Of a stretch of 28,031 bases of DNA, positions 11,336 through 26,786 are shown piece after piece. Both the position numbers and the translations under genes were made by a program. How positions within the stretch are numbered: position 1 is the first letter of the stretch; every line of letters starts with the position of its first letter. The notes under the pieces were generated by a model, which was not told where the DNA came from, ran no database searches, and saw only the letters and a program-made list of their open reading frames with translations. The DNA is taken from the IMG/VR virus record IMGVR_UViG_3300020281_000105, positions 1 to 28,031 of that record; one strand, 5' to 3'. The DNA comes from a virus.

Positions 11336-12283
11336 ATGAGTACTTTATCGTTACATGATTTACAAGGATTTTCAACCTACAGTAATACTGTAAGGGTTCC
11401 TAGTGGTCATACTTTTCAAGTAGATGGAAGATTAAAAATTCCACAAGGGACTACATCTAATAGACCTGGTTCTCCTGCAAATGGTGAATTGTATTATAAT
11501 ACAACTATTGGTCAATTGGAAACTTATATTCAAGATGGTTGGGTGGCTCTTGCTAATGCTGCAACTGGTACTAGATCAGATGCACCTCTAGCTAAATCTA
11601 CTGATCTTCTTACAATAAATCCAAATGCCACAACAGGTTGGTATTGGTTAGATATTAATGGTGTTTCTACTAACGTCTGGATTGATACAGTATATCGTAG
11701 TGGTGGTTGGGTTCTAGTTCTATGTAATAGAAGGGGAACTGGTGGAATGACTGGTTTAACCTACTCTAATGGAACTTCATATCAGGTTAACTACAGAGGA
11801 GAGTACGGAGATGGAAAGAACTTAGGTGCATTTAATATGTGCATGGGTCTTCCAATGTGGTCTTCTATTATTGCTGATAATCCTGGCACTGGACAAGTTG
11901 CTCAATTTGTAGCTACTAGTGCTATGGAATTAGGTAATACTGGTGGTCATAGTAAACGTCAATATTGGAATTGGAATGGTGCATGGGTCAATAGCTTTGC
12001 AGCATCTGGAGCTAGTGGTGAGGTCGTAGAATTAGGATCGCCTGGATCTGGACAATATGATTATTGGACTGTCTATGGTTCATATGGTTATAACTTTACC
12101 ACCACTGATGATGACAATGATACATATGGTGGTAACTGTGCCAACTTATATAATGCAAATCCATGGTGGTACAATGCTTGTTGGTCAGGAAACATGTTTG
12201 CTGGCGGTCCTTATCAGGATGCACCTTATTGGTATAGTTCTGGTGGAGACCATCATAATTATGGAGCTATGTACGTAAAATGA
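11336..12283 (+). CDS. Adhesin A: fibre-type N-terminus plus fibrinogen-like (FReD) C-terminal domain
   Basis: This 315-residue protein starts at ATG 11336, four bases after the fibre gene stop. Residues 20-72 are a fibre-type module (KIPQGTTSNRPGSPANGELY, then LETYIQDGWVAL) shared with the two later adhesins. Residues about 97-315 match the layout and length (about 215 aa) of fibrinogen-related domains: GWYWLDINGV for the 'GxYxIxPxG' opening, GGWVLVLCNRR for 'GGGWTVxQRR', an acidic DDDND at 258-262 where FReDs bind calcium, then NCAN (C268), WWYNAC (277-282) and SGNMFAGGPY for 'NCA..WWY..C..SNLNG.Y'. The C268/C282 pair equals the conserved FReD disulfide. The Cys of the usual 'VYCD' strand is absent. 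Known FReDs are lectins for acetylated sugars, so a receptor-binding role is likely but inferred. The gene overlaps the next one by ATGA. Confidence 0.75.
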   Translation: MSTLSLHDLQGFSTYSNTVRVPSGHTFQVDGRLKIPQGTTSNRPGSPANGELYYNTTIGQLETYIQDGWVALANAATGTRSDAPLAKSTDLLTINPNATTGWYWLDINGVSTNVWIDTVYRSGGWVLVLCNRRGTGGMTGLTYSNGTSYQVNYRGEYGDGKNLGAFNMCMGLPMWSSIIADNPGTGQVAQFVATSAMELGNTGGHSKRQYWNWNGAWVNSFAASGASGEVVELGSPGSGQYDYWTVYGSYGYNFTTTDDDNDTYGGNCANLYNANPWWYNACWSGNMFAGGPYQDAPYWYSSGGDHHNYGAMYVK

Positions 12284-12525
12284 AGTGTACTATTAAGAAA
12301 AATAGAACTACTACTGATCAGCATGGTAACTTGAAATTTATCATGAAATTTTATGATGACTCAGATGTATTTTTACACAGCGTTACTTGGCAGAAAGAAA
12401 TCAATGGAGAGGATAATTCTCTAGATGAATCTGAATGGAATGACTGGAGAGATGATATGCTGAAACAACAAGGCGACATGTACAGTGTTACATGGACTGA
12501 TATAACTGTAACTGAGGACGCTTAA
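12280..12525 (+). CDS. Small protein of unknown function following adhesin A
   Basis: This 81-residue acidic protein begins at an ATG overlapping the adhesin A stop (ATGA), which implies translational coupling. It has no signal peptide, membrane segment or cysteine pair. The N-terminal half has an alternating pattern suggestive of beta strands (NLKFIMKFYDDSDVFLHSV); the C-terminal half is acidic with a helical stretch (DESEWNDWRDDMLKQQ). I do not recognise a family. Its tight coupling to an adhesin gene, and the recurrence of a small ORF after each adhesin here, makes a dedicated chaperone or assembly partner possible, by analogy to tail-fibre assembly proteins. That is inference only. Confidence 0.7.
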   Translation: MKCTIKKNRTTTDQHGNLKFIMKFYDDSDVFLHSVTWQKEINGEDNSLDESEWNDWRDDMLKQQGDMYSVTWTDITVTEDA

Positions 12526-12527
12526 TC

Positions 12528-13439
12528 ATGGCTAGTATTTTAAGAATAGACACTCTACAAAATCTCGCAGGTACTACTGCTGCTACCCTTGAGGGAAATG
12601 GTGGGTTATATGTTGCTAACAGATTTAGACTTCCACAGTTTGCATTTGCAAGCCTTCCATCTAGCGGTGTTAGTGAAGGAGAACTTGTTTATGACACCAC
12701 AAACAAAATGTTAAGATTTTGGACTGGACAGAGATGGTTAGAAGCATCTAAGTCTGGTGGTCTAGGTGAGTCAGAAAGTAATCCTGTTGCTAATGGACAA
12801 GAACTAAGATCTATTGGTATATCAACTAATGGTGATTATTGGTATCAACCAGTTGGTGCAAACTTTTCTATACAATGCTATACAAATTTCAGTTCTCCTG
12901 TTGCTTCTAATAAAGCATGGGTGTTAGTACAGAGAGGTAGAGAAAGCTATCAAAACAAATGGGCATATGCAGGATATAATTACGACAAGTTAGATTCTTC
13001 ATATCTAAATGATAATGGAAATATTGCAGCTGCACCTTCCGATTGGGTTAACTCTCTTATAGGTGGAAACTGGTTAAATCAAAAGATGTTGGTTAACAGA
13101 AATTGTGTTAATGACTCTTATACTTTTGTCGCAACTACTGCAGCAAGTTTCCAATGGAACCAATGTAATGGTGGAACTAGACCAAATGCAAACTGGGCTA
13201 GGTATGGATCTTTCTGGGGTGCAGGTTCTGCAACCAATAGTGACAACAACACTACTTCTTGGACTGATACTAATTACGGTCCAGGTAATAACTGTGGTAG
13301 AAGTTTCAGTTGGCAATGGAACCAACATGGTGGATACCAAGGATGGTCTACTGGATCAACATGTGACCCCTCATGTGGATTTGAATATTCTAGTGAGAAC
13401 CACAGAATTATGAACGCACACGTATACTTTGAATGTTAA
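12528..13439 (+). CDS. Adhesin B: fibre-type N-terminus plus divergent fibrinogen/intelectin-like domain
   Basis: This 303-residue protein starts at ATG 12528, with a GAGGA ribosome-binding sequence about 10 bp upstream. Residues 28-72 repeat the adhesin N-terminal module in looser form (RFRLPQFAFASLPSSGVSEG, then MLRFWTGQRWLEA). From about residue 95 it resembles the start of a fibrinogen-related domain: STNGDYWYQP, then FSIQCYTNF (C117 at the 'VYCD' position) and AWVLVQRGRES at the 'GGGWTVxQRR' position. The C-terminal half lacks the DxDND/NCA/WWY block and instead has GNWARYGSFWGAG-like text (ANWARYGSFWGAGSATNSDN) and ends SSENHRIMNAHVYFEC, closer to intelectins. Seven cysteines lie between 117 and 303. 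A lectin-like receptor-binding role is inferred; the fold call is less sure than for adhesin A. Confidence 0.6.
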   Translation: MASILRIDTLQNLAGTTAATLEGNGGLYVANRFRLPQFAFASLPSSGVSEGELVYDTTNKMLRFWTGQRWLEASKSGGLGESESNPVANGQELRSIGISTNGDYWYQPVGANFSIQCYTNFSSPVASNKAWVLVQRGRESYQNKWAYAGYNYDKLDSSYLNDNGNIAAAPSDWVNSLIGGNWLNQKMLVNRNCVNDSYTFVATTAASFQWNQCNGGTRPNANWARYGSFWGAGSATNSDNNTTSWTDTNYGPGNNCGRSFSWQWNQHGGYQGWSTGSTCDPSCGFEYSSENHRIMNAHVYFEC

Positions 13440-13440
13440 G

Positions 13441-13770
13441 ATGACTATTACCGCCAACTATCTTGCATGGAAAGACGATCAGAGTGGGTACGAAGCTGCC
13501 CTTAATCCCGATCAAGGAGTCTCAGATAATACTGCTAAGGAGATGATCCTTCGTGGTCTTATAGAAGAGTGTTATACTCTTAGAAAATCTGAGTACCCTT
13601 CTGCAGGTGATCTTGGTGATGCAATCTATCATCAGTCTCTAGGGGATAATACTAAAATGACAGCTTACAATGCAAAAGTAAAAGCAGTCAAAGATAAATA
13701 TCCACTACCTCCTGTTCCTTCTTCTTATGGGTGGGAACAAACAGCCATGGAACCTGACCACGGAGAATAA
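13441..13770 (+). CDS. Small protein following adhesin B, possible fibre assembly partner
   Basis: I start this 109-residue protein at ATG 13441, one base after the adhesin B stop; an in-frame TTG at 13429 would add four residues but overlaps adhesin B and has no better ribosome site. The protein is mostly polar and helical, with no membrane segment. The stretch YPSAGDLGDAIYHQ (52-65) followed by VKDKYPLP (83-90) resembles the 'YP..GDQLDA.wh ... VK.kYPkP' pattern seen in small proteins of phage tail-fibre regions (XkdW-like and relatives). That pattern and its place between two adhesin genes suggest an adhesin or fibre assembly partner. The match is short, so the function stays tentative. Confidence 0.65.
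   Translation: MTITANYLAWKDDQSGYEAALNPDQGVSDNTAKEMILRGLIEECYTLRKSEYPSAGDLGDAIYHQSLGDNTKMTAYNAKVKAVKDKYPLPPVPSSYGWEQTAMEPDHGE
13693..13700 (+). promoter_or_regulatory. Late promoter-like octamer (GATAAATA) upstream of adhesin C
   Basis: This seven-of-eight match to TATAAATA lies 79 bp upstream of the ATG of adhesin C, at a distance that would leave a leader of about 65 nt. It lies within the coding sequence of the preceding small gene, so chance occurrence is possible. Confidence 0.3.
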
Positions 13771-13778: not shown

Positions 13779-14912
13779 ATGTCAACTCTTAACACTGGTA
13801 ACATTTCTGGAGATCCGTCATTCAATACGACTGGTGCGGTAAAACTTCCTGTGGGATCTACAGGTCAGAGACCTGGCTCACCACGTGAGGGAGATCTCAG
13901 ATACAATAATTCTATAAGTCAATTAGAAATTTATGCTAATGGTCTTTGGCATGCTATAGGAGGTGTGCTATCACCTTTTACTGCAACTTTCTATTCTCTC
14001 TTCAGTAGTCCAAATAGAACAGCTCCTACATCCGTAGGTTCTTATTATAACAGCAGTCCACTTAGCGGAAACGTTTCACTTAGTGGTGGTAAACAAGCTT
14101 GGTCAGTTCCCTCATCTGGATGGTATAGATTTAATGCATATGGTGCACAGGGTGGAACTAATCAATACTATCAAGGAGGAGGAGGTGCTCGTATTCAAGG
14201 AGACTTTTTCCTAGAGCAAGGAGAAGTTATTAATGTATTATGTGGTTCTGCAGGTGTAGGTCCTACCTATGAGGATTGCGACTGCGGTGGTGGCGGTGGA
14301 ACTTATGTCGTCAAGGCAAGTGGAAACAATGTATCCGACATCCTTTTAATCGCTGCAGGTGGTGGCGGTGCTAGTAATGGAGGATTTAACAGTCAAGGTT
14401 GTGGAAATAGAACTCAAAATACTACTACAGGTGCTTGTGGAAAAGATGGTAGTGCTTCTGTAAATGGACTAGATGGTCGTGCAGGTAGAGGTGGTACTGG
14501 AGGATATGCTGGCGACAGAGCATTGAGTGGATCTAACAGAGGTAATCCTGGTGGCGGTTTCTATGGTGGTGGATTTAGTTATTCACAAAACCCAACATGG
14601 AGTGAAACTAGAGCTGGACAATCTTATATGGATGGTTCTCTAGGTGGCACAGCAAACCAAAGTGATTCCTTTGGTGGATTTGGTGGCGGTGGCGGTGGTC
14701 ACGGTAACTGCTTCATCTCAGGTGGAGGTGGCGGTGGCTACAATGGTGGAGGTTGTGAAGTACAATACTCCTCATATCATGGTGGACAAGGTGGAGGATC
14801 CATCAATAACGGTGTCAACAAGGTTGGACAAAGTGGTGTAAATTATAATGGAAATGCAGCACAAAATGGTAATCAAGGATACTGTGAAGTAACAAAAATT
14901 AGTGGTGGTTAA
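13779..14912 (+). CDS. Adhesin C: fibre-type N-terminus plus receptor-kinase-like glycine-rich domain
   Basis: This 377-residue protein has at residues 20-60 the clearest copy of the shared N-terminal module (VKLPVGSTGQRPGSPREGDL, then QLEIYANGLWHAI). From about residue 106 it matches the glycine-rich domain known from ALK/LTK receptors and many secreted proteins (PF12810 type): WSVPSSGWYRFNAYGAQGG, GGGGARIQGDFFL, a 'GE.I.VLCG' strand, GGGGGTYVVKASG, then ILLIAAGGGGASNGG. Poly-glycine runs continue to the C-terminus, which closes with the strand GYCEVTKISGG. Cysteines are concentrated around 155-220 and 311-369. Glycine-rich sheets of this kind also form the receptor-binding tips of gp38-type adhesins of T-even phages, so a host-binding tip is a reasonable inference. 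Confidence 0.75.
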   Translation: MSTLNTGNISGDPSFNTTGAVKLPVGSTGQRPGSPREGDLRYNNSISQLEIYANGLWHAIGGVLSPFTATFYSLFSSPNRTAPTSVGSYYNSSPLSGNVSLSGGKQAWSVPSSGWYRFNAYGAQGGTNQYYQGGGGARIQGDFFLEQGEVINVLCGSAGVGPTYEDCDCGGGGGTYVVKASGNNVSDILLIAAGGGGASNGGFNSQGCGNRTQNTTTGACGKDGSASVNGLDGRAGRGGTGGYAGDRALSGSNRGNPGGGFYGGGFSYSQNPTWSETRAGQSYMDGSLGGTANQSDSFGGFGGGGGGHGNCFISGGGGGGYNGGGCEVQYSSYHGGQGGGSINNGVNKVGQSGVNYNGNAAQNGNQGYCEVTKISGG

Positions 14913-14914
14913 TT

Positions 14915-15274
14915 ATGGCAGCTAGAACTTCAGCTTTTACATCATATACAGATGCAAAGGCATGGCTAGAAGGTGGAACAAAAAGACTTCTTATACTAAC
15001 TGATACTCAGTGCAGTGCGTGTGCTACTTGGTTAGCAGAGACTTTACCAACATATGATATTGGTACTTGGTTGTGGTCTACACTACCAATAGAGACATGG
15101 GTATCTGATGCAGAGGATAAAGATGTGGTATGCTACACAGGTGTTGCGGCTACAGCTTTGCATAGATGGCCATTAGGTGCTATAATGACAGAAGTTCAAG
15201 TCAAGGAATTCTTGGCACTTTGTGAAAAAGATGAATCAATCCCCAGACCAGGAGCAATCAACTCTTCCTCTTAA
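14915..15274 (+). CDS. Small CxxC protein, possibly thioredoxin-like
   Basis: This 119-residue protein starts two bases after the adhesin C stop. A hydrophobic strand followed by CSAC (KRLLILTDTQCSACATWL; C33 and C36) resembles the active-site region of thioredoxin-fold proteins. However, the cis-proline motif and the remainder of a thioredoxin domain are not clear, and the protein is at the short end for that fold. Two further cysteines (C73, C103) are present. If redox-active, it could assist disulfide formation in the cysteine-bearing adhesins encoded upstream; that is inference from position. A plain third 'small partner' of the cassette is the alternative. Its 3' end overlaps the next gene by 44 bp. 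Confidence 0.6.
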   Translation: MAARTSAFTSYTDAKAWLEGGTKRLLILTDTQCSACATWLAETLPTYDIGTWLWSTLPIETWVSDAEDKDVVCYTGVAATALHRWPLGAIMTEVQVKEFLALCEKDESIPRPGAINSSS

Positions 15275-15986
15275 GGTATTTGACGATAGAATATTTGAAG
15301 TAAACAGTGGTATAAATGTAACCACTTACGATGTTGGTAATCATAAAAATCGTATTGTCTCTGTTGACAATTTTTTCGCGTATCCAGAAAAGGTACGTGA
15401 TTTTTTATTGACTATTCCTCAACAGTTTATACCCAACCCATCTATGAAACCTACTGCATGGGATGCTAAAGCAGGTTTCTATCCTGGTTACCAAACTTAC
15501 CTTTCGTTTCAGATAAAAGAGTTAGAAGAAAAGATTAAAAAGATAGCACAAATAGAATTTGGATATAGTGGAAGGTTTATTAATTACTCCTTCCAAAGAA
15601 TATTTGGTCACAGTAAAGTATTCAAACAATCCAACTGGCCACACTGTGATGACTCTGCTCTTGCAGGTAATATATGTTTAAACTTTGATGATGAGATAGA
15701 AGGTGAGACTGGAACATCATTCTATAGAGTAAAGGAAACTGGAGAAGAATATTTTCATCCCAGTACATGTATGTACAGGAAATCAAGGTATTGTTTTACA
15801 CCTCAGAGAATGGACATGGATGTATATCAACCCATTGTGGAGAACACTAAATACATCAGATACCATCTTGATGAACATAAGTTCAATAGATTTAATCTGT
15901 ATGAAGGAGCGTGTTTCCATACTGCTTTTATGGAAAAAGGTAAGTACCTTAACACACCAAGAATGACACTTTCTATATCATATTAA
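15231..15986 (+). CDS. DUF6445-like Fe(II)/2-oxoglutarate oxygenase-type protein
   Basis: I start this 251-residue protein at ATG 15231; a GTG at 15222 would add three residues. The sequence has the DUF6445-like opening (RIVSVDNFFAYPEKVRDFLL, 41-60), a 'F.PGYQTYLS' segment, and then the double-stranded beta-helix metal motif WPHCDDSALAGNICLN with H138 and D140. The strand GTSFYRVKETG and a distal ACFHTAF (H230) follow, and PRMTLSIS supplies R244, at the place where these enzymes hold the 2-oxoglutarate carboxylate. So the full HxD...H...R set is present. Such enzymes hydroxylate proteins, nucleobases or small molecules; the substrate here is unknown. It is the first of five oxygenase-type genes in a row and the only one with HxD. 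Confidence 0.75.
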   Translation: MNQSPDQEQSTLPLKVFDDRIFEVNSGINVTTYDVGNHKNRIVSVDNFFAYPEKVRDFLLTIPQQFIPNPSMKPTAWDAKAGFYPGYQTYLSFQIKELEEKIKKIAQIEFGYSGRFINYSFQRIFGHSKVFKQSNWPHCDDSALAGNICLNFDDEIEGETGTSFYRVKETGEEYFHPSTCMYRKSRYCFTPQRMDMDVYQPIVENTKYIRYHLDEHKFNRFNLYEGACFHTAFMEKGKYLNTPRMTLSISY

Positions 15987-15987
15987 T

Positions 15988-16626
15988 ATGGACATATACA
16001 ATATTTTTCCGACACCTGTGCACGTGTTTAAAGGGGAATTTGATTTTAAAAAGATTATTTCTGATCTTGAAGAAGAAGATTATATTAATGTAAATCAAGC
16101 ACAACCCGAACACCCAGAAAGGGTTTGGCAAACTCGACATGATTTGCATAAAGATCCTAGGTTCAAAGAGATAACAACTTTCTTTGAGGATTGCGTAGAG
16201 CAATATAGAGCACACTATGAATATGAATGTGAGAAATTAGATATCAGTATTATGTGGGCTAACCTATCGCCTGGTTTTAAGGCAGGTAAGCATGAGATAC
16301 ATCATCACCCAATGTCATATATCAGTGGTATATTCTATCTGACTGATGGTTCACCTACCATGTTCTGTGATCCTGTAGATAAAAGACGGGAAGGTATGAT
16401 CAAACTTTATAGTGTAGATCCACAGAAAACTCCTGAACAATGGGGGATGATACCTGAAGCTGGGAAGTTATTATTATTTCCTAGTTGGTTGAAGCATGGT
16501 ACTTTGAACCATGTACAAGAGTTTTCGAGATGGTCAATTAGTTTTAATTGCATTCCTATAGGACCTTGCAATGCAGCATCATCTCAAGCAAAACTAGCTA
16601 CTTGGAATTTATATCAAGCTGAATAA
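15988..16626 (+). CDS. Putative 2OG-Fe(II) oxygenase (PF13759/TIGR02466 type)
   Basis: This 212-residue protein starts one base after the previous stop and overlaps the next ATG as TAATG. The opening IYNIFPTPVHVFKGEF is the usual start of this family. The core shows MWANLSPGFKAGKHEIHHHP followed by SYISGIFYLT, then PEAGKLLLFPSWLKHGTLNH and RWSISFN. Candidate metal ligands are H105, H107 and H170, with R181 for 2-oxoglutarate. Length and motif order fit a complete, single-domain enzyme. Members are common in marine myoviruses, but their substrates are mostly unknown. It is closest to the gene at 18171, which shares the HP..(F/Y)ISG(I/V) and LLLFPS.LKH signatures, suggesting an in-cluster duplication. 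Confidence 0.8.
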   Translation: MDIYNIFPTPVHVFKGEFDFKKIISDLEEEDYINVNQAQPEHPERVWQTRHDLHKDPRFKEITTFFEDCVEQYRAHYEYECEKLDISIMWANLSPGFKAGKHEIHHHPMSYISGIFYLTDGSPTMFCDPVDKRREGMIKLYSVDPQKTPEQWGMIPEAGKLLLFPSWLKHGTLNHVQEFSRWSISFNCIPIGPCNAASSQAKLATWNLYQAE

Positions 16627-17339
16627 TGCCTATTATTGAATGGAAGTCGGACGCTCCTAGAACTCCTTTTGCACCTAATTGGAACTTTCCTTTCTATACT
16701 GAGAAAGTATTTACTAGAGATGAGTGTAAACAAATAGGAGAAAGTATCCTAAGAAGAGAAAAAGAAATAATACATGACTTTAAAGATGTCGCTAATGATG
16801 GTGGTACTGGCCTTGGGGGAGATAGTCTTACTGCAAAGTTTAGTGCATTTAGTGTATGGGAATGGGATGAACCATGGGTGAATACACTGAGAGATACAGT
16901 CAACAGAGGTTGTGCAGCCATGGGACAATACATGCATGACGAAGGACTGTGGGATATTGGTTGTGGACAAGTTGATGGATTTAACCACAGAGAGGAAATA
17001 TATTACTCTCAATGTTGGGCAAATGTAATGAGATCAGGAGAGCAGATATTACCACATTGGCATAGTTCTTATAAAGATAGTTTTATAGGTGCACATTTAA
17101 CTATTGCTGCAAATAGAACTGGTACATATTATGCTAATTCATTTAACAAACAAGTAGTAAAGGGATTTGCAAATAAGCCAGGTGAACTTTATATGTTTCC
17201 AAACCATTTAGTTCATTGGACAGATAAACATGATCATCCATTTGAAAGAATAACAGTTGCAATGGATATTCTAACTGAACAAGGGTGGAAGGATCATCCA
17301 GACAAAGGTATAAAACCAAACTATAAGATGATCACATGA
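16626..17339 (+). CDS. Putative 2OG-Fe(II) oxygenase-type protein
   Basis: This 237-residue protein begins with the TAATG overlap and ends with an ATGA overlap to the next gene. The N-terminal half has PFYTEKVFTRDECKQIGESI, typical of the start of 2OG dioxygenase-like proteins ('...f..eec..i...'). The core reads YYSQCWANVMRSGEQILPHW, then HSSYKDSFIGAHLTIAA, followed by PGELYMFPNHLVHWTDKH and ERITVAMDI. Candidate ligands are H144, H146 and H197, with R208 in the 2-oxoglutarate position. The layout matches its neighbours, though overall sequence is distinct from the PF13759-type pair, so it is a different subfamily rather than a recent copy. Substrate unknown. Confidence 0.7.
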   Translation: MPIIEWKSDAPRTPFAPNWNFPFYTEKVFTRDECKQIGESILRREKEIIHDFKDVANDGGTGLGGDSLTAKFSAFSVWEWDEPWVNTLRDTVNRGCAAMGQYMHDEGLWDIGCGQVDGFNHREEIYYSQCWANVMRSGEQILPHWHSSYKDSFIGAHLTIAANRTGTYYANSFNKQVVKGFANKPGELYMFPNHLVHWTDKHDHPFERITVAMDILTEQGWKDHPDKGIKPNYKMIT

Positions 17340-17974
17340 ACATTAACTATCATTTTGACTATCCCTGTTTGATGTACAGTCAACTTCCAGAGGATATTTT
17401 TGAAGAATTAAATAATCTACCTAATGGTGCTCATCATGGTAATAAATTAGTTGGAGTATTCCCAGACGAATACAAACTACCGATACGAAAAGCACCTTTG
17501 TTTAGAGATTTTATCATTTGTCTATCTGAGGCTTTCGCTAGAGAATGTTCAACTGCTCCTGTATTTCATCAGATCAGGCAGAACACTCCACCTAACACAC
17601 CGTTTAAATTAGCGGATCTCTGGAGAAATGAAATGTATGCTAATTCTTATCAACCTTTACATCAGCATACTGGGTTGTTTAGTTTTATTGTATTCATGGA
17701 TGTTCCCTATACACATGCAGACCAAATGAAATTAGAGCCTAACGTTCTACCAGAACATGTAAAAAATGGATTTACAGAATTCTCAGACCCATTCTCTATG
17801 TTCAATAAATTAATTAATGTTGAAAAAGGTATAGAAGGTCAAGTAATATTATTTCCTGCATGGGTAAACCATGTAGTATATCCATTCAAGGGGTTCTCTG
17901 GTATACCACGAGTTAGCATTTCTGGCAATATTGTGCTAGACTATGGTACGGTTGATGGTGCAGAGCACTTCTAA
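17336..17974 (+). CDS. Putative 2OG-Fe(II) oxygenase-type protein
   Basis: This 212-residue protein starts in the ATGA overlap with the previous gene. It keeps the order of motifs seen in the other oxygenase-type genes: WRNEMYANSYQPLHQHTGLF with an HxH (H109, H111), a strand FSFIVFMDVPY, then a longer insert (about 126-165), and GIEGQVILFPAWVNHVVYPF with H179 and PRVSISGNI with R192. The insert between the two halves is longer than in its neighbours. I take it as a complete member of the jelly-roll 2OG-Fe(II) superfamily, less conserved than the PF13759-type pair. Activity is not certain because the canonical acidic ligand is replaced by His. Substrate unknown. Confidence 0.65.
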   Translation: MNINYHFDYPCLMYSQLPEDIFEELNNLPNGAHHGNKLVGVFPDEYKLPIRKAPLFRDFIICLSEAFARECSTAPVFHQIRQNTPPNTPFKLADLWRNEMYANSYQPLHQHTGLFSFIVFMDVPYTHADQMKLEPNVLPEHVKNGFTEFSDPFSMFNKLINVEKGIEGQVILFPAWVNHVVYPFKGFSGIPRVSISGNIVLDYGTVDGAEHF

Positions 17975-17998
17975 ATATAACAGTTATTATTTTAAACT

Positions 17999-18178
17999 AT
18001 GGAAATCCCAGACATGATCAAAGAGTTTAATGGTCAATTGGTAGAGCAAAAGGCTACTATCGTTGAACTTGAAAAACAACTCAGTCAAAGAAAAGAACAG
18101 GTATTGAGATTAGAGGGTGCAATAGAAGCACTAAATATGTCTCAAAAAGAAGAAGGTGAAGCTAAAGTAGGTGATTAA
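17999..18178 (+). CDS. Small coiled-coil protein (59 aa)
   Basis: ATG 17999 opens a 59-residue frame ending at TAA 18176-18178. It begins MEIPDMIKEFNGQLVEQKAT and continues IVELEKQLSQRKEQVLRLEG, then AIEALNMSQKEEGEAK. Leucine and isoleucine occur at heptad spacing (V, L, L, L, I), giving a clear short coiled coil with a charged tail, and no membrane segment. It lies after a 24-bp gap, the largest between genes in this oxygenase block, and overlaps the next gene by eight bases. Comparable small coiled-coil proteins occur in marine T4-like phages without assigned function. An oligomerisation or scaffolding role is possible, not shown. Confidence 0.7.
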   Translation: MEIPDMIKEFNGQLVEQKATIVELEKQLSQRKEQVLRLEGAIEALNMSQKEEGEAKVGD

Positions 18179-18764
18179 AACAGTATTCAGTATGTTTCCA
18201 CAGACCCTAGTGGTCTGTGATATTGGTATTGATCATCAAGAAGTACAAGATAATATTAAAGAAGTTTTAGAAGATGGAGATGGTTTCTCTATTTCTAAGA
18301 CTAATTTGCATGAGGATGAGAGGTTCTGGGTATTGTCTGGTTTGTTTGTAGAAGCAGTCAAACATTCATTCGCTAATGTTTTTGAATATAAAAACATATC
18401 TCCTCGCATAAGTACTATGTGGGCTACAGGGTGTGCATCCAATGAATATATTCATACACACTCACATCCTAACAGTTTTATATCTGGGGTATATTATCCT
18501 CAAGATATAGATTATCCTCCTATCAGGTTCTTTGATCCAGTACCAAAGATGATCATTCCTGATGTGGCTCAACCAAATTTTTATAATGTAACTGATTGCA
18601 TTATCAATCCAAATCAAGGAGACCTACTATTGTTTCCCAGTTATCTGAAACATGAGACTGCTAAAAATGATTTGGATCAAATGAGATATAGCATATCATT
18701 TAATGTATTTCCTTTTGGAACTTTTGGTGAACAAGACAAACTATGTAACTTGGAGTTAAAGTAA
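18171..18764 (+). CDS. Putative 2OG-Fe(II) oxygenase (PF13759/TIGR02466 type)
   Basis: The GTG at 18171 overlaps the end of the coiled-coil gene and gives 197 residues; ATG 18192 is an alternative that would lose seven residues (start MFPQTLVVCDIG). The core is of the same type as the gene at 15988: MWATGCASNEYIHTHSHPNS, then FISGVYYP, a proline-rich loop with FFDPVPKM, NQGDLLLFPSYLKHETAKND and MRYSISFNVFPFGTFG. Candidate ligands are H97, H99 and H161, with R172. All expected strands are present, so the protein looks intact. The gene is coupled to the following one by TAATG. Substrate unknown. Confidence 0.75.
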   Translation: MIKTVFSMFPQTLVVCDIGIDHQEVQDNIKEVLEDGDGFSISKTNLHEDERFWVLSGLFVEAVKHSFANVFEYKNISPRISTMWATGCASNEYIHTHSHPNSFISGVYYPQDIDYPPIRFFDPVPKMIIPDVAQPNFYNVTDCIINPNQGDLLLFPSYLKHETAKNDLDQMRYSISFNVFPFGTFGEQDKLCNLELK

Positions 18765-19108
18765 TGCATCAAAAAAACATACCATCTAGTGAAGCTAGGA
18801 AGCAAGAACATGTCAATTCTACACAGTTCTATATTCCTTTTGATGGTACTGCAGAGACTTGCCCATATAGAACAGGAGATTTATATGAGGGTAGATCCAT
18901 TGTTTCAGTAGGATTTACAGAGAATGTATATGGTAAATCTTATCATATTATTGTGGAGAGAGATAGAACTCATTGTAGACAAAAGTATGTCTTTGATGCT
19001 AGTCACGATTTAAAGTTTTGCAAACCAGTAGAAAGAATGGATAAGGTTGTTGACGAAACAGAAATTGCAAGAATACTTAGACAAGTAGATATGAACAAAA
19101 AGGCATAA
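18764..19108 (+). CDS. Unknown 114-residue protein
   Basis: The ATG overlaps the preceding oxygenase gene stop (TAATG), so the two are probably co-translated. The protein has a polar start (MHQKNIPSSEARKQEHVNST), a beta-rich centre (SVGFTENVYGKSYHIIVERD), four cysteines (one after AET, one in RTHCRQ, one in LKFCKP and none forming a CxxC), and a helical C-terminus (VDETEIARILRQVDMNKKA). There is no signal peptide or membrane segment. I recognise no family. Its coupling to the oxygenase gene points to a shared process, but nothing in the sequence names it. The C-terminal coding region contains the late-promoter-like element for the next gene. Confidence 0.65.
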   Translation: MHQKNIPSSEARKQEHVNSTQFYIPFDGTAETCPYRTGDLYEGRSIVSVGFTENVYGKSYHIIVERDRTHCRQKYVFDASHDLKFCKPVERMDKVVDETEIARILRQVDMNKKA

Positions 19109-19111: not shown

Positions 19112-19138
19112 AACCTGAAGGACTAATTGCGAGCTGGG

Positions 19139-22100
19139 ATGAAGAAGGTAGTCATCAGGGTTTCTGGTAATTATAGTTTGGATTCTGCATGTGCTGCTAT
19201 CCTAAAATTATACGGTTTCCTAACCAATTATAAAGCATATAGAAGTTTTAAGACATTTTCATTAGAATGTCCAGAACAATATGAGAGTGGTTTACTAGAC
19301 AAACTCAATGCACTTAATGTTGTTAAGAAAGCGTTTTGGGATAAACTAGCATACTCTTCTGGAGCTGTGTCTGCCCAAGGAGTAGAGGTACAGACTAGTG
19401 GAGACGTAGTTGCACAATCCACTACGAATACAAGAAATATTACTGGATCAAGTACGAACACAATATACGTGAAGGTTATATCTAACTGGCAAGGCAGTGG
19501 AGCAAACGTATTTGCGTTCTCAACTGATGGTGGTAGTACATATTCTGTTACATCTTTCTTCAGTGGTTTCTTACAAGGTGCAACATATGTCTTTGATCAA
19601 TCAGACCCAACTAATAATACCCATCCTATAAGATTTTCTACTACACCTGACGGTTCATATACAACTGGCGGTGTAGAATTTTCATCAGGTGTAACCTATA
19701 ACGGAGTTGCAGGATCATCAGGTGCTAACACAACTGTAGTATTTGGTTCATCTACACCTTCAGTTTTATACTATTATTGTTTAAACCATGCTGGAATGGG
19801 AAGGTACGATACCTCTCCTAACAGATACGGAACACTTAACGTACATGACTTCTGGCATTTAGATAGACTGACCAAACAAGACAGACAGTATATGAATGGT
19901 CAGTACAGTAATAGTGGTCAGACTGGCGATGGTGTTGATATCTATATCTTAGACAGTGGAGTTCGTGGTGCAAGTAGACCAACAGGTAACAACGCAGCTC
20001 TACATCCTGAATTGTATGATCCAGATTTTGTTACTGATCTGAACGGAACTGCTGAACAACAGAACTATAGAGTGTACCAACTACCACATTACGCTGGTGA
20101 TTATGGTACTAACAACGAAGATGATAATGATCACGGTACTTATTGTGCCATCTTAGCTGCAGGTAGAACCTGTGGATTTGCATCTAATGCAAAAATATAT
20201 GCACTCAAATGCTTGAACTCTTCAGGTAGTGGTACATATACTGCTATATTAAATGCATATCAGGCAGTCATAGATCATAATGATAGTGGCAATGCAAACT
20301 ATAAAGGCAATACTAGACCAGCTATTGTCAATACTTCTATAGGTTCAGGACTTCCAAGTCAGTCTTATCCATATGTTGAACTGAATGATGCAGGTGATGA
20401 CACAGGAACTGACGAAGAAGTATTAGATGATATTGAAGGAACCATAGCTGCTTCTCAAAAAATATTAATTTGTAGATCTGCAGGTAATGGATTTAAAGAT
20501 TCTGGTGATAATTTTGCAGGACCTTTGATGTCTAAGGTTGTGGTTGGAGCAAGAACTGCTGGCTATGCTGATAACACAACTGGTGGTGTGAACAATGTAG
20601 ATGTAGATCAAGCAAAGATTTCTGTAGGTGCTACAGACTATAATGATAGGTGGGCAGACTTCTCTAACTATGGTGCTGGTGCTACTGTTTGTGCACCAGG
20701 TAAAAATATTCGTCTTCCTAAGTATGACTGGACTGCAAACACACCATATACTAGCACTGCGAACTATGCAACTATTGGTGGTACATCATTCTCATGCCCT
20801 CTAGTTGCAGGCATTATGGCATGTTGGGCTGGCAAGAATGGGTATACTTTAACAACTAATAACTTTGCAACACTAGGAAAACAATTTATTAGGGGAACTG
20901 GTAACACTGGAGATATAACGAAGGGTGTAACTCAACTCTATCCAACAAATAGTATTGAAGAAAGAAAACTACCCACTAACCCATATACGGTTACTAGTGG
21001 AAGTAATAATATAGTAATATCTTTTAACTCATCTGATAACAGTCACTTCATTGGTAATGTTGGTAAGAAGGTTCAGTTAAGAACTACAGGATCAACAGAG
21101 GGTGGTGGTAGTAACGCTCTAACATACAATATAACAACAACTGCACCGTCATTTAGTTTCTATACACTTAGTGGAACTGATAGAAATGGTGGAGTAAATG
21201 GAAACAATGTAGGTGTTACTGTATATGTTGGAGACACTATTAATTTTAACTTATCAGGTGTCAGTGGTTCTCATCCATTTTATCTTAAGAGTGTACAGGG
21301 AACTGGAACTACTAATCAGGTAAGTACACCAGCTGCTACTGGACAAGGATCTACAGGAACTGCAACAGTATCATGGACACCAAATACTGCAGGCACATAT
21401 TATTATCAGTGTTCTAATCACAATGCAATGAATGGAACTATCACAGTTCAAAACGATCCTGGTGCAGGTGGTGTAGTTCTTGGTGGTACAGACATTTCTG
21501 CATTATCTCAAGGTGGATGGTTAAACATAACTGCTGAAGATTCAATCAATAATACGGTTACCGTTCAATCAGCTGGTAACGCTAGTGCTACTGCAACTGG
21601 TGGTGGATCAAATAACTATCTTGCACTGATTAATTCGGAAGCAATAACACATGAAAGTACAGATGGTGTTGTTTCTACTTCTACTCAACTAAGATCTCAG
21701 ACTGATGCTCAAGAAGCACAAGGTACTAGTGTATATGATAATGTAAAATACTATCCAGTAGATAGTGGAGTTGACTTTAAATATGATGCCAACACTGATG
21801 TTCTAACTAAAAAGAGAGGAGCATTTTTCCCCTACGTTGATACTACAGTAACATGGGCACAATCTTCTGGTGCAATAACTGGAAGTCCATTTACAAATGG
21901 TGCTAGTGTTAGTATCGACCTTGGTTTATCTGGCCAGACATTTGCTAGTGAACCAACTTACGAACTTTATACAACTACAGGTGATGCACTGGGTGCTTCT
22001 GGTCTCTCATTAAACACTACGACAGGTGTATTGAGTGGTACAGTTACATCAGATTATATTGATACAACTTTTAACTTTAGTGTAGTTGAGCAAATTACAA

Positions 22101-24631
22101 ACAATACCCGTGCATTCAGTTTTACTACTGCAGGAACTGGTGTTCTTATTACAGTTACAGGACAACCTAGTGACGCAAGTATAGAAGCAGGTGCTGGTAC
22201 AAATGCTACATTCGGTCCTGTATCAGCTATCAGTTCTGATGGATCTACCATTACATATCAATGGGAACTATCTACTGACAGTGGTGCTAACTGGTCTGCC
22301 CTATCTGAAGGTAGTGGTTATACTAACGTGACAAGTAATACATTGACAGTCAATGATGACTATGGAAAAAATTCATATCAGTTCCGTTGTAAGTTAGATA
22401 CTAATACCGCAGTGGCATCAGCTTATACTAATGCTGTCACACTAACAGTATTCAGAGTGATTACTGTAAATACACAACCAGTAAACTCTACACCTGTTGC
22501 TCCAGCTACAGGATCATTTACAGCGGTGGGCTCAACTGCAGATGGTGCACCAATCACATATCAATGGTATAAATCTGAGAACGGTGATGGAGTAAACTTC
22601 AATGATATAAGTGGTGCTACCTCATCCACATATACTACAGGTGCTACAACTTACGATGCTGATTATGGTGATTACTACTTATGTAAATTAAATGCAGTAG
22701 GTGCAACTGGTATCTTTGCAAACACTGTTAGATTATTTGTAACTAGAACAATTAATATTACCACTCAACCTCAAGGAACTACAGGTGCTGTTGGTGGAAC
22801 AAGAACATTCAGTGTCGTAGCAAATACTTCAGATAATGATTCTGGAGATATAACATACCAATGGCAGATATCAAATACAGGTGGTGCTTCTTGGAGTAAT
22901 GTATCTGCAGGAACTGGTGGAACTACAGCAACTTATGTAACTCCTACATTAGATGCATCCTACGATGCAAATCAGTTCCGTTGTGTATTGTCTTGTACAG
23001 GTGCTACACAGATAGCATCAAATGCTGTTACCTTACAGGTAGAAACAGTAACTGTTAATGTTGTAAATCAACCACAGGATGCAACTGTAAATGAAACAGC
23101 TACAGCAACATTCAGTTGTACTGGATCAGTTACTATGTCAATCATTGGTGGTAATGCTGCGTCTTCATCATATGATAGTGAATCATGGACAACACCTGGT
23201 GGTGGAGGAGGATCAGAAAATGCTCAAAGTCAATCAGATCATAGTCCAAACGTAAGTTTCCAATGGCAGAAATCAGATGATGGAGGAGCAAACTGGGCAA
23301 ATATAGGTGGTGCAACAAGTTCAAGTTATACAACTGCTGGCACAGTATATGCTACAGATAATGCTGATCAGTATCGTTGTGAGTTAGATGCAGTTGGTGC
23401 AACTGTCAAGGCATATACAAATGCTGTAACTCTGACTGTACAAAGAACATTTGCTATTACCGCACAACCATCTAACGTAACATCTAATGAGGGTGCTACC
23501 AGTAACTTCACTATATCGGCATCAACAAGTAGTGGAACTCCAACATACCAGTGGCAAAAATCTGATGATGGTGGTGCAAACTATGCAAATGTTTCTACTG
23601 GTACAGGTGGAACAACAGATTCATATACAACTGGAACTTTAATATTTGCTGATGATAATAACGATCGTTTCCAATGTATCGTATCTCTTGTTGGATCTGC
23701 TGCACCTATAACTTCTGGTTTTGCATTACAGACTGTATTGCGTGTTATCACTATCAGTCAACAACCTCAAAACACTGCTGTTATTGAAGGACAGACTGCA
23801 AGTTTCAGTGTAACTGCTGCTATTACTAGTGGCTCAATTACATATCAGTGGCAGATATCAACTGATAGTGGAGCAAATTGGAGTGCTATTAATGGTGCAA
23901 ACTCAGCGTCATATACAACACCTGCAACAACATACCCAATTAATCCATCAGAACAATTCCGTTGTGTTCTATCAAACACTAATGCAACTTCTGTAACAAC
24001 TACAGCTGCCACTTTAACTGTTAATGAATCAGAGTTTGTATCTGCTCCAACTACTGTTACACCATTTATAGATCCAGATACTACTAAGACTTTATCAAGA
24101 CAACCAGTTATTACTACATCTGCATTCGTTCAAGAATATGCAGGCTCAACACATAGTTCTTCTTACTGGAGAATTAGAAGAGTTAATGATAACGTAACTG
24201 TCTATGATACTAACAATATAAATCTTAATGGAGATAGTGCAAATAAAACTAGTCTCACAGTACCTGCAGGAGTTCTTGAATTTGATACTCAGTATTCAGT
24301 TCAGGTTAAGTTCAGGGATCAGAATGGTTTGCAAAGTGCATACTCAAGTGCATCGTCATTTACTACTCCATTTGTTGATCAACCAGAGATACAAGTTATC
24401 ACACCTGCATTCAATCCTACTGTTACAGCGTTGACTGCACAAGTGAAAAGTGGTTTCCAACACACATCAACATTCTGGCAGTTCTCACCAGCAGTTACAT
24501 TTACTAATATAGTACATGAATCTAGAGACAACAGTGTAAACAAATTATCTTACACTCTTCCTAATGCTGTGACGCTTAGTGCGAATACTCTTTATTATGT
24601 AAGAATTAGATTCAACGTTAATCCTGTATAA
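19139..24631 (+). CDS. Multidomain virion protein: subtilisin-type protease flanked by cupredoxin-like domains, with Ig-like and FN3-like repeats
   Basis: Start chosen at ATG 19139 (1830 aa); TTG 19127 lies nearer GAAGGA and is a possible alternative. Residues 1-75 resemble an I9-type subtilase propeptide (KKVVIRVSGNYS ... LNALNVVKKAFWDKL). A cupredoxin-like unit follows, with H162 (NTHPIRF) and C214, H217, M220 (YYYCLNHAGMG). Peptidase S8 comes next with all catalytic residues: D272 (VDIYILDSGVRG), H332 (DNDHGTYCAILAAG), N450 (RSAGNG) and S550 (GGTSFSCPLVAGIMA). A second cupredoxin-like unit has H712 (SGSHPFYLKS) and C758, H761, M764 (YYYQCSNHNAM). Then come a putative-Ig (He_PIG-like) segment near 930-1000, six Ig-like repeats (about 1001-1629) and two FN3-like domains (1632-1830). 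Directly upstream of gp13, it is probably a virion component; it could self-process or cut host surface or phage proteins. No secretion signal is seen. Confidence 0.8.
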   Translation: MKKVVIRVSGNYSLDSACAAILKLYGFLTNYKAYRSFKTFSLECPEQYESGLLDKLNALNVVKKAFWDKLAYSSGAVSAQGVEVQTSGDVVAQSTTNTRNITGSSTNTIYVKVISNWQGSGANVFAFSTDGGSTYSVTSFFSGFLQGATYVFDQSDPTNNTHPIRFSTTPDGSYTTGGVEFSSGVTYNGVAGSSGANTTVVFGSSTPSVLYYYCLNHAGMGRYDTSPNRYGTLNVHDFWHLDRLTKQDRQYMNGQYSNSGQTGDGVDIYILDSGVRGASRPTGNNAALHPELYDPDFVTDLNGTAEQQNYRVYQLPHYAGDYGTNNEDDNDHGTYCAILAAGRTCGFASNAKIYALKCLNSSGSGTYTAILNAYQAVIDHNDSGNANYKGNTRPAIVNTSIGSGLPSQSYPYVELNDAGDDTGTDEEVLDDIEGTIAASQKILICRSAGNGFKDSGDNFAGPLMSKVVVGARTAGYADNTTGGVNNVDVDQAKISVGATDYNDRWADFSNYGAGATVCAPGKNIRLPKYDWTANTPYTSTANYATIGGTSFSCPLVAGIMACWAGKNGYTLTTNNFATLGKQFIRGTGNTGDITKGVTQLYPTNSIEERKLPTNPYTVTSGSNNIVISFNSSDNSHFIGNVGKKVQLRTTGSTEGGGSNALTYNITTTAPSFSFYTLSGTDRNGGVNGNNVGVTVYVGDTINFNLSGVSGSHPFYLKSVQGTGTTNQVSTPAATGQGSTGTATVSWTPNTAGTYYYQCSNHNAMNGTITVQNDPGAGGVVLGGTDISALSQGGWLNITAEDSINNTVTVQSAGNASATATGGGSNNYLALINSEAITHESTDGVVSTSTQLRSQTDAQEAQGTSVYDNVKYYPVDSGVDFKYDANTDVLTKKRGAFFPYVDTTVTWAQSSGAITGSPFTNGASVSIDLGLSGQTFASEPTYELYTTTGDALGASGLSLNTTTGVLSGTVTSDYIDTTFNFSVVEQITNNTRAFSFTTAGTGVLITVTGQPSDASIEAGAGTNATFGPVSAISSDGSTITYQWELSTDSGANWSALSEGSGYTNVTSNTLTVNDDYGKNSYQFRCKLDTNTAVASAYTNAVTLTVFRVITVNTQPVNSTPVAPATGSFTAVGSTADGAPITYQWYKSENGDGVNFNDISGATSSTYTTGATTYDADYGDYYLCKLNAVGATGIFANTVRLFVTRTINITTQPQGTTGAVGGTRTFSVVANTSDNDSGDITYQWQISNTGGASWSNVSAGTGGTTATYVTPTLDASYDANQFRCVLSCTGATQIASNAVTLQVETVTVNVVNQPQDATVNETATATFSCTGSVTMSIIGGNAASSSYDSESWTTPGGGGGSENAQSQSDHSPNVSFQWQKSDDGGANWANIGGATSSSYTTAGTVYATDNADQYRCELDAVGATVKAYTNAVTLTVQRTFAITAQPSNVTSNEGATSNFTISASTSSGTPTYQWQKSDDGGANYANVSTGTGGTTDSYTTGTLIFADDNNDRFQCIVSLVGSAAPITSGFALQTVLRVITISQQPQNTAVIEGQTASFSVTAAITSGSITYQWQISTDSGANWSAINGANSASYTTPATTYPINPSEQFRCVLSNTNATSVTTTAATLTVNESEFVSAPTTVTPFIDPDTTKTLSRQPVITTSAFVQEYAGSTHSSSYWRIRRVNDNVTVYDTNNINLNGDSANKTSLTVPAGVLEFDTQYSVQVKFRDQNGLQSAYSSASSFTTPFVDQPEIQVITPAFNPTVTALTAQVKSGFQHTSTFWQFSPAVTFTNIVHESRDNSVNKLSYTLPNAVTLSANTLYYVRIRFNVNPV
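22140..24030 (+). repeat. Six tandem Ig-like repeats in the subtilase protein gene
   Basis: Six protein-level units of about 95 to 130 residues begin near 22140, 22455, 22741, 23041, 23441 and 23738. Each starts 'RxItVxxQP', has a central ITYQWQxSxDxGANW and ends in 'YxCxLxxxGA...TNAVTLTV', the Trp and late Cys pattern of Ig-like folds. Repeat 4 carries a Ser/Gly-rich insertion (about 23140-23240, including TPGGGGGSEN). Divergence among units suggests old duplication. Confidence 0.75.
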
Positions 24632-24632
24632 C

Positions 24633-25448
24633 ATGGCTTCACCATCAACAAGAGAAGGACTTATCGACTACGCATTGCGTCAGAACGGTGCTCCTGTTTT
24701 AGAAATTAATATTGAAGATGATCAGATATCTGATCTAGTAGATGATGCTATCCAATTTTATAATGAAAGACATATGGATGGTTACATTAGAACCCATCTA
24801 AAAGTTCAGTTTACTCAGGCCATGATTGATGCCATGACAACTGACACTACTACTCAAGTAACAGCTGCAACATCATCAGCACTAGCAGTTGACTGGAAGG
24901 AACAGAATAATTATCTTAAAGTTCCTGAGCATGTTACTAGTGTTATAAAAGTATTTCCATTCCAATCTAAGAACGTAACTAATTTATTTGATGTTAGATA
25001 TCAGTGGAGATTAAATGATCTATGGGATCTAACTAACACAGAAATTTTAACCTATGAGATGGTTAATAGAAGACTAGAAGATATCTATTATCTCTTAGAA
25101 GGACAGAAGCAAACTAGATTCCAGATGAGAGGAGATAGATTATATCTAGATTTAGATTTTAAAACTGATGTAAATGATGGAGACTTCTTAGTTCTTGAGG
25201 TCTATCGTGCACTAGATCCTACAAATACATCTGCAGTTTACAATGATCTTTGGATGAAAAGATATGTATCTGCACTTATACAAAGACAGTGGGGTGCAAA
25301 CTTAATCAAGTTCCAAGGAGCACAGTTGCCTGGTGGAATTACAATGAATGGAGAGTTTATATACAACGAAGGTAAAGAGAAAGTAGCGAAACTAGAAGAA
25401 GAAATGATATCTCAATATGAGACACCACCCCTTGACATGATTGGCTAA
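24633..25448 (+). CDS. 13: Neck / head completion protein gp13
   Basis: This 271-residue protein starts one base after the subtilase gene stop and overlaps gp14 as TAATG. The opening STREGLIDYALRQNGAPVLE, INIEDDQISDLVDDAIQFYN and the following ERHMDG closely resemble gp13 neck proteins of marine T4-like phages. With gp14, gp13 forms the neck that closes the filled head and receives the tail. It is somewhat shorter than T4 gp13 (309 aa). The order gp13-gp14-gp15-gp16 that follows is the T4 order, which fixes the identity well. Confidence 0.88.
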   Translation: MASPSTREGLIDYALRQNGAPVLEINIEDDQISDLVDDAIQFYNERHMDGYIRTHLKVQFTQAMIDAMTTDTTTQVTAATSSALAVDWKEQNNYLKVPEHVTSVIKVFPFQSKNVTNLFDVRYQWRLNDLWDLTNTEILTYEMVNRRLEDIYYLLEGQKQTRFQMRGDRLYLDLDFKTDVNDGDFLVLEVYRALDPTNTSAVYNDLWMKRYVSALIQRQWGANLIKFQGAQLPGGITMNGEFIYNEGKEKVAKLEEEMISQYETPPLDMIG

Positions 25449-26785: not shown

Positions 26786-26786
26786 T

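Follow-up and report, generated by a model that had tools for sequence, protein, structure and literature searches.

Among marine cyanophage genes that have no established role, those for 2OG-Fe(II) oxygenases rank with the most common, and their abundance in these phages is already known. T4-like cyanophages, the phage group considered here, encode members of the same families as those described below (phrog_81, PF13759 and PF13640; up to 24 per genome, in S-SCSM1). They have been published as metabolic or DNA-repair genes and are mostly filed under host metabolism; arrays matched to adhesins, or fiber-linked arrays presented as a system, were not found in the literature searched. For three of our proteins (ox2, ox3 and ox5), the solved structures most closely related in sequence or in fold are 2RG4 and 3BVC, uncharacterized bacterial proteins of the PF13759/TIGR02466 type. 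These have the H-x-H-P-x-S motif seen in ox2 and ox5, but are cellular proteins of unknown function.

Two viral protein hydroxylases of the same superfamily, mimivirus L230 and chlorella virus vCPH, occur in our fold match lists. L230 acts on collagen-like proteins of mimivirus itself. Both enzymes differ from those studied here in that they belong to viruses of eukaryotes and have collagen-type substrates, whereas the adhesins here are not enriched in proline or lysine. In cassettes of the T4 gp37-gp38 type, an exchangeable receptor-binding gene is accompanied by cognate downstream genes. The locus resembles these cassettes, but there the downstream gene encodes a chaperone or adhesin and here the cognate genes include oxygenases. 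Also similar is a cluster of tailoring enzymes in cyanophage S-SSM6a, whose 10 genes include halogenase, 2OG oxygenase and cupin genes (PMC7824862). It differs in carrying carbamoyltransferases and phosphatases, and was interpreted there as metabolite or capsule chemistry.

The window (the whole stretch of DNA analyzed, 28,031 nucleotides of IMG/VR record IMGVR_UViG_3300020281_000105) is a genome fragment of a Eurybiavirus-like Prochlorococcus myovirus. It includes a variable island bounded by the long tail fiber gene on one side and by GC518, the protease gene and gp13 on the other. The following features were identified:

238..11331, plus strand: long tail fiber gene (GC513/YapH-like), bounding the island on the left, from megablast collinearity and synteny with the 'tail fiber protein' of P-HM1, P-HM2 and MED4-213
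11336..12283, plus strand: adhesin A, RPGSP-type N-terminus and fibrinogen-C-like end (PF00147, 2.9e-5)
12280..12525, plus strand: small gene 3' of adhesin A, conserved in L010 and L011
12528..13439, plus strand: probable adhesin B, from position and make-up, without a family match
13429..13770, plus strand: small gene 3' of adhesin B, distantly related to P-HM1 GC516 (phrog_2687, 1.3e-7)
13779..14912, plus strand: adhesin C, glycine-rich terminal adhesin (25% Gly)
14915..15274, plus strand: small gene 3' of adhesin C
15231..15986, plus strand: ox1, predicted DUF6445/phrog_1644 2OG-Fe(II) oxygenase (H-x-D...H...R), with another possible start, a GTG, at 15222
15988..16626, plus strand: ox2, predicted PF13759/TIGR02466 oxygenase (H-x-H...H...R)
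16626..17339, plus strand: ox3, predicted divergent PF13759-like oxygenase
17336..17974, plus strand: ox4, predicted PF13759 oxygenase
17999..18178, plus strand: GC517 homologue of 59 aa, a phage backbone gene overlooked in the preliminary description
18171..18764, plus strand: ox5, predicted PF13759/TIGR02466 oxygenase, inserted between GC517 and GC518
18764..19108, plus strand: GC518, conserved gene bounding the island on the right (phrog_26228, 1.2e-51)
19127..24631, plus strand: GC519, large protein of virion type that includes a protease domain (phrog_27200; phrog_3677 protease)
24633..27791, plus strand: neck genes gp13, gp14 and gp15 (phrog_211, phrog_460, phrog_227)

P-HM1 GC516 also matches phrog_2687, and the gene at 13429..13770 may encode a fiber chaperone. 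As the preliminary description stated, the oxygenase genes have adhesin-like genes on one side and a protease gene on the other, and do not lie among DNA-metabolism genes, none of which is recognizable in the island. Its single translationally coupled array of five genes needs revision: ox1 to ox4 are coupled, but GC517 separates ox4 from ox5. The order is thus four coupled genes, then GC517 from the phage backbone, and last ox5. TATAAATA-like sites, as expected for T4-type late promoters, are no commoner than chance. Compared with two relatives, the window shows a mosaic of sequence identity along its length, a pattern that alone does not show transfer of the whole cassette.

All five ORFs proposed earlier as 2OG-Fe(II) oxygenases find family matches. 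ox1 matches DUF6445 (PF20043; 1.3e-11, 45.3 bits, above the 24-bit threshold) and phrog_1644 (1.6e-31). PF13759 (2OG-FeII_Oxy_5) is matched by ox2 (6.5e-18, 65.4 bits), ox4 (1.9e-9, 38.3 bits) and ox5 (2e-19, 70.3 bits), all above the gathering cut-off of 27, and by ox3 at 1.5e-5 and 25.7 bits, just below it. phrog_81 is matched by ox2 to ox5 at about 9e-21 or better (ox3, 9.4e-21). ox3 is filed only as PF13759-like, on the strength of its phrog_81 match and fold, given its PF13759 score. Against the TIGR02466 threshold of 62.5 bits, ox2 (64.7) and ox5 (67.3) score above and ox4 (18.9) below, and ox1 and ox3 have no match. Given the matches to DUF6445/phrog_1644 and PF13759/phrog_81, the five ORFs are not chance resemblances. 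The window yielded no match to PF13640, as the oxygenases here are of the PF13759 and DUF6445 types, and a genome scan for the bacterial context of DUF6445 gave no relative.

The active-site pattern reported for the five ORFs (an H-x-H/D pair, a distal His, and an Arg 11 to 14 residues on) is present in each, with the refinement that H-x-D occurs in ox1 only and ox2 to ox5 all have H-x-H. The sole invariant columns in an alignment of 20 PF13759-type proteins are W, H-x-H, H and R, although these proteins, ox3 orthologues aside, are only 11-24% identical to ox3. The H-x-H...H of ox2 to ox5 is found also in 2RG4 and 3BVC, and its second His is a putative metal ligand. H-x-D, H and R are likewise invariant in nine aligned DUF6445 proteins. 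The spacing from distal His to Arg is 14, 11, 11, 13 and 11 residues in ox1 to ox5, the Arg column being invariant; in the superfamily, the 2OG-binding Arg lies 10-14 residues past the distal His. AlphaFold models of ox1 and ox3 (pLDDT about 70) match 2OG oxygenases with a double-stranded beta-helix: ox1 matches OGFOD1 (Z 14.1, 173 residues, rmsd 2.9) and ox3 matches 3BVC (Z 16.6, 174 residues, rmsd 3.1). The fold of ox2 and ox5 is assigned by sequence to 2RG4/3BVC and that of ox4 by PF13759 alone. The top fold matches are mostly protein hydroxylases (OGFOD1/Tpa1, lysyl hydroxylases, PHD2, P4H), along with others. We conclude, from sequence and, for ox1 and ox3, modelled fold, that ox1 to ox5 are all 2OG-Fe(II) oxygenases, one of DUF6445 and four of PF13759/phrog_81, with the predicted metal- and 2OG-binding residues intact. 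The dN/dS values across the five genes (0.03-0.35) indicate purifying selection.

The strong divergence among the five genes noted previously holds. Tandem duplication is ruled out as their origin: ox2, ox4 and ox5 are only 11-18% identical to ox3, and the nearest relatives of the members are found in different phages and regions. Because relatives elsewhere occupy different genome regions, the comparisons indicate that the array members were recruited separately; those of ox2, ox3 and ox4 in other phages adjoin DNA-replication or nucleotide genes. Separate recruitment makes the proposed single modification pathway doubtful, and it is equally likely that the enzymes work in parallel on different residues or targets.

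A census of this locus in relatives comprised 54 non-redundant islands. At least one oxygenase is present at the island end in 40, and 14 have none at that place; several arrays, that of the window among them, are found at this locus. The islands of P-HM1 and MED4-213 each have a single oxygenase, and that of P-HM2 has none. The genomic link between array and adhesins that the preliminary reading put forward for checking is borne out, in that arrays of different origin share the site and are associated with particular terminal adhesins. Array type tracks adhesin type, while the junction upstream is variable. A four-gene array comes after a102L adhesins in 10/10 islands, whether f101 or u133 precedes them, and s516 with a PF13759 oxygenase comes after the short form of a515 in 5/5, despite three different preceding genes. 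On a 46-taxon backbone tree, the independent pairs agree in 4/4 cases for a102L, and for a515 three agree and two are ties, with none opposite, numbers too few for significance. Mutual information was also calculated for array and adhesin labels, a measure that ignores relatedness. The f101 gene (P-HM2_101) was dropped as an adhesin-side gene, as its Cys-rich N-terminal part and Methyltransf_24 domain identify an enzyme. Its pairing with DUF6445 (2/2) is thus one of enzyme with enzyme and was excluded from the adhesin claim; the f101 islands were kept among the 54. Adjacent genes move together even without a common function, a caveat on the array-adhesin pairing.

The ties between oxygenase sets and the neighboring tail protein suggest that the enzymes may chemically finish tail proteins. 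We give an even chance to the possibility that the oxygenases modify the adjacent adhesins before assembly. The island would then be an exchangeable host-recognition cassette that combines terminal adhesins with small assembly-type genes and a matching 2OG-Fe(II) oxygenase set. The oxygenases would be made together with late virion proteins and hydroxylate adhesin side chains in the infected cell, each perhaps with its own residue or target, and hydroxylation could alter adhesin stability or receptor binding. Points against it are the 14 islands whose end has no oxygenase, the DNA-replication or nucleotide-gene surroundings of the ox2, ox3 and ox4 relatives, the lack of class-wide enrichment near giant ORFs given below, and an adhesin composition that gives no target-residue signal. 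The main rival, which we consider rather unlikely, is that a secondary metabolite or host surface polysaccharide is what these enzymes tailor, their place near the fiber reflecting a common link with the cell surface, for example in superinfection blocking. Such chemistry was proposed for the S-SSM6a cluster (PMC7824862). Related arrays contain halogenases, a JmjC/cupin protein and a sulfotransferase. The fold matches of ox1 include PolD and PasI, which have small-molecule substrates. However, neither glycosyltransferase nor carbamoyltransferase was found in the island of the window or in the scanned island proteins, several arrays contain chaperone genes, and small-molecule or glycan chemistry sits poorly with adhesin and array types going together.

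That pairing would also be left unexplained if the substrates were other host or phage proteins (ribosomal proteins, an elongation factor, capsid or other virion proteins). We regard this as improbable, although OGFOD1/Tpa1 and a Pseudomonas hydroxylase bound to EF-Tu have closely similar folds and, in S-H9-1, a DUF6445 gene adjoins that of the major head protein. AlkB-like DNA repair or nucleobase modification was proposed for Syn9 oxygenases adjoining uvsX/uvsY (PMC2984593), and related single oxygenases lie near replication genes. For this locus it is very unlikely: Pfam assigns none of the five to PF13532 (AlkB; no match up to E 10) and the island lacks recognizable DNA-metabolism genes, although ALKBH3/AlkB do occur lower down the fold list of ox1. 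Draw-down of 2-oxoglutarate as a way for the infecting phage to direct nitrogen control (NtcA) in its host, as proposed for cyanophage 2OG oxygenases (PMC3037559), would not account for five diverse sequences, their site or adhesin-specific sets, and we give it very little credence. Just as improbable is reuse of the fold as a non-catalytic coat or fiber component. PHROG labels phrog_1644, the ox1 family, 'minor coat protein', but the conserved residues are those of the active site, and the portion available to us of a virion study of S-SCSM1, whose genome encodes 24 oxygenases, names none among 45 virion proteins (13 of them of unknown function).

The association extends beyond this locus and into other genera, with arrays 3' of tail-fiber genes in S-RSM4 (two arrays), S-CAM1, S-CAM4, S-ShM2 and P-TIM40. 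A 'tail assembly chaperone' gene lies within the array in S-CAM1, S-CAM4 and S-RSM4, and arrays of other cyanomyoviruses sometimes include halogenases or tail chaperones. As a class, oxygenases are not enriched near giant ORFs (25 seen within 7 kb of ORFs of at least 1000 aa, versus 25.4 expected). We propose, tentatively and with some doubt, that in cyanomyovirus cassettes each adhesin travels with its own side-chain-tailoring enzymes, host range being set by the added chemistry as well as by sequence. In some relatives, a halogenase, sulfotransferase or methyltransferase gene adjoins such an array and would join the oxygenases in the tailoring set. If the fiber-side arrays do act on fibers, many such genes would belong to host recognition instead of metabolism, and phage host range would come to include post-translational chemistry. 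The idea is accessible to proteomics in the isolates P-HM1, MED4-213, S-RSM4 and S-CAM1. Single oxygenases are scattered throughout these genomes.

The record, a viral contig of 28 kb, represents a piece of a Eurybiavirus-like T4-type cyanophage genome. By megablast against the Prochlorococcus myoviruses P-HM2, P-HM1 and MED4-213, 42-47% of the last 25 kb aligned at 76-77% identity, and the gene order of the block comprising the tail fibre, a variable island, GC517, GC518, GC519 (protease domain) and gp13-gp14-gp15 is the same as in these three phages. The following genes lie downstream of adhesins A-C at the end of the island:

15231..15986, + strand, ox1, oxygenase of the DUF6445/phrog_1644 family
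15988..16626, + strand, ox2, phrog_81 and PF13759 oxygenase
16626..17339, + strand, ox3, phrog_81 oxygenase, slightly below the PF13759 cut-off
17336..17974, + strand, ox4, phrog_81 and PF13759 oxygenase
17999-18178, homologue of GC517 of P-HM1, 59 aa
18171..18764, + strand, ox5, phrog_81 and PF13759 oxygenase

The preliminary description saw the five oxygenase genes as one coupled array. All five are present, but the arrangement is four plus one because the GC517 homologue, which had been overlooked, sits between ox4 and ox5. GC517 and GC518 adjoin in P-HM1 and P-HM2, and ox5 is inserted between them in the window.

The five genes encode genuine, intact enzymes. The positions conserved in each family are the catalytic ones (H-x-D, H and R in DUF6445; W, H-x-H, H and R in PF13759-type proteins), and dN/dS values of 0.03-0.35 relative to the two nearest relatives indicate purifying selection on every gene. 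The top structural matches of the AlphaFold models of ox1 and ox3 (pLDDT about 70) are 2OG oxygenases, including OGFOD1, Tpa1, lysyl hydroxylases, PHD2 and P4H; the small-molecule enzymes PolD, PasI and SnoN are likewise among the matches. In the PF13759-type proteins (ox2-ox5, window 15988-18764) H-x-H is invariant and replaces H-x-D/E, a motif that may form a three-His metal site.

Loci retrieved by GC518 and by gp13 yielded 54 non-redundant islands whose terminal part could be read, and at least one oxygenase is encoded at this site in 40 of them. The complete five-gene set was identified in the window and in two more contigs, with oxygenases that are 89-99% identical. The islands of P-HM1 and MED4-213 encode a single PF13759 oxygenase, and that of P-HM2 encodes none. 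Other island types carry DUF6445 alone, three PF13640 oxygenases along with a phrog_2954 protein whose H-x-D...H pattern is similar, or a set of two PF13759 genes, one sulfotransferase and one PF13640 gene.

The window array is one case of a broader pattern that extends to other cyanophage genera. In S-RSM4, about nine oxygenase-type genes from different subfamilies lie in a row between the tail fibre and gp13, and a second array is located behind a virion structural gene. Oxygenase clusters also occur behind tail-fibre genes in S-CAM1, S-CAM4 (two loci), S-ShM2 and P-TIM40; in the last, two tryptophan halogenases are part of the cluster, as is a JmjC/cupin protein. Across six complete genomes, six of the seven arrays of three or more genes are at fibre loci; the remaining one lies at 171 kb in P-TIM40, near psbA and hli genes. 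DUF6445-type genes adjoin tail fibres in S-SSM7, S-CAM4, Sf-FS3 and S-ShM2, and the major head protein instead in S-H9-1. Single oxygenases are scattered, and we found no enrichment of them near giant virion ORFs. Thus, the association with fibres is a property of the arrays, not of the oxygenase class.

Arrays and adhesins also occur in consistent pairs. The four-gene array follows the a102L adhesin in 10/10 islands, whether this adhesin is preceded by the P-HM2_101-type gene or by u133, another island gene (one of the ten has a different gene order and one an extra DUF6445). Behind the 322-325 aa form of the a515 adhesin, a small gene and then a PF13759 oxygenase are present in all five cases, with the fibre, the island gene a514 or the P-HM2_101-type gene preceding the adhesin, and the 413-414 aa form occurs without an oxygenase. 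On a backbone tree built from GC518, GC519 and gp13, independent pairs agree in 4/4 cases for a102L and in three for a515 (with two ties), and none is opposite, numbers that are too low for significance by themselves. Two loci, L060 and L062, have identical GC518, yet adhesin and oxygenase both differ between them. Physical linkage is sufficient to account for part of the pairing.

Several roles have been proposed for cyanophage 2OG oxygenases, namely nitrogen/2OG control (PMC3037559), DNA repair (PMC2984593) and host reprogramming (PMC9602691), and a cluster in S-SSM6a has been interpreted as metabolite or capsule chemistry (PMC7824862). Eight Fe(II) oxygenases among variable marine phage island genes were placed under host recognition without argument (PMC3909814). 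Searches of open-access papers turned up no account that treats fibre-linked arrays as a system. The best-supported reading is that the oxygenases modify the neighboring adhesins; we infer each step from gene to modified protein, and give this reading about an even chance of being correct.

Genes for other enzymes were identified in these regions. A sulfotransferase gene (PF13469; L041:3981-4760, also present in L044) lies inside an oxygenase array and adjoins an adhesin. P-HM2_101 (GC354/phrog_1458; L005:12581-14317) is an enzyme that combines a Cys-rich N-terminal part of unassigned fold with a Methyltransf_24 domain; genes of this type are frequent in the islands, and the S-ShM2 and S-CAM4 versions are about 50% identical to it. 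A class-III aminotransferase gene is encoded at this end of the island, directly upstream of GC519, in loci L095 (PF00202), L121 and L111. The two P-TIM40 halogenase genes (L222:6772-9868) are located after tail-fibre assembly genes and before the oxygenase array.

The PHROG labels 'DNA endonuclease V' (274), 'DNA endonuclease' (2297), 'ferrochelatase' (2954) and 'minor coat protein' (1644) sit on 2OG-oxygenase-like proteins (L159:6075-7065, L071:8191-9284 and L158:10955-11671), and the endonuclease, ferrochelatase and minor coat protein labels appear in RefSeq cyanophage records.
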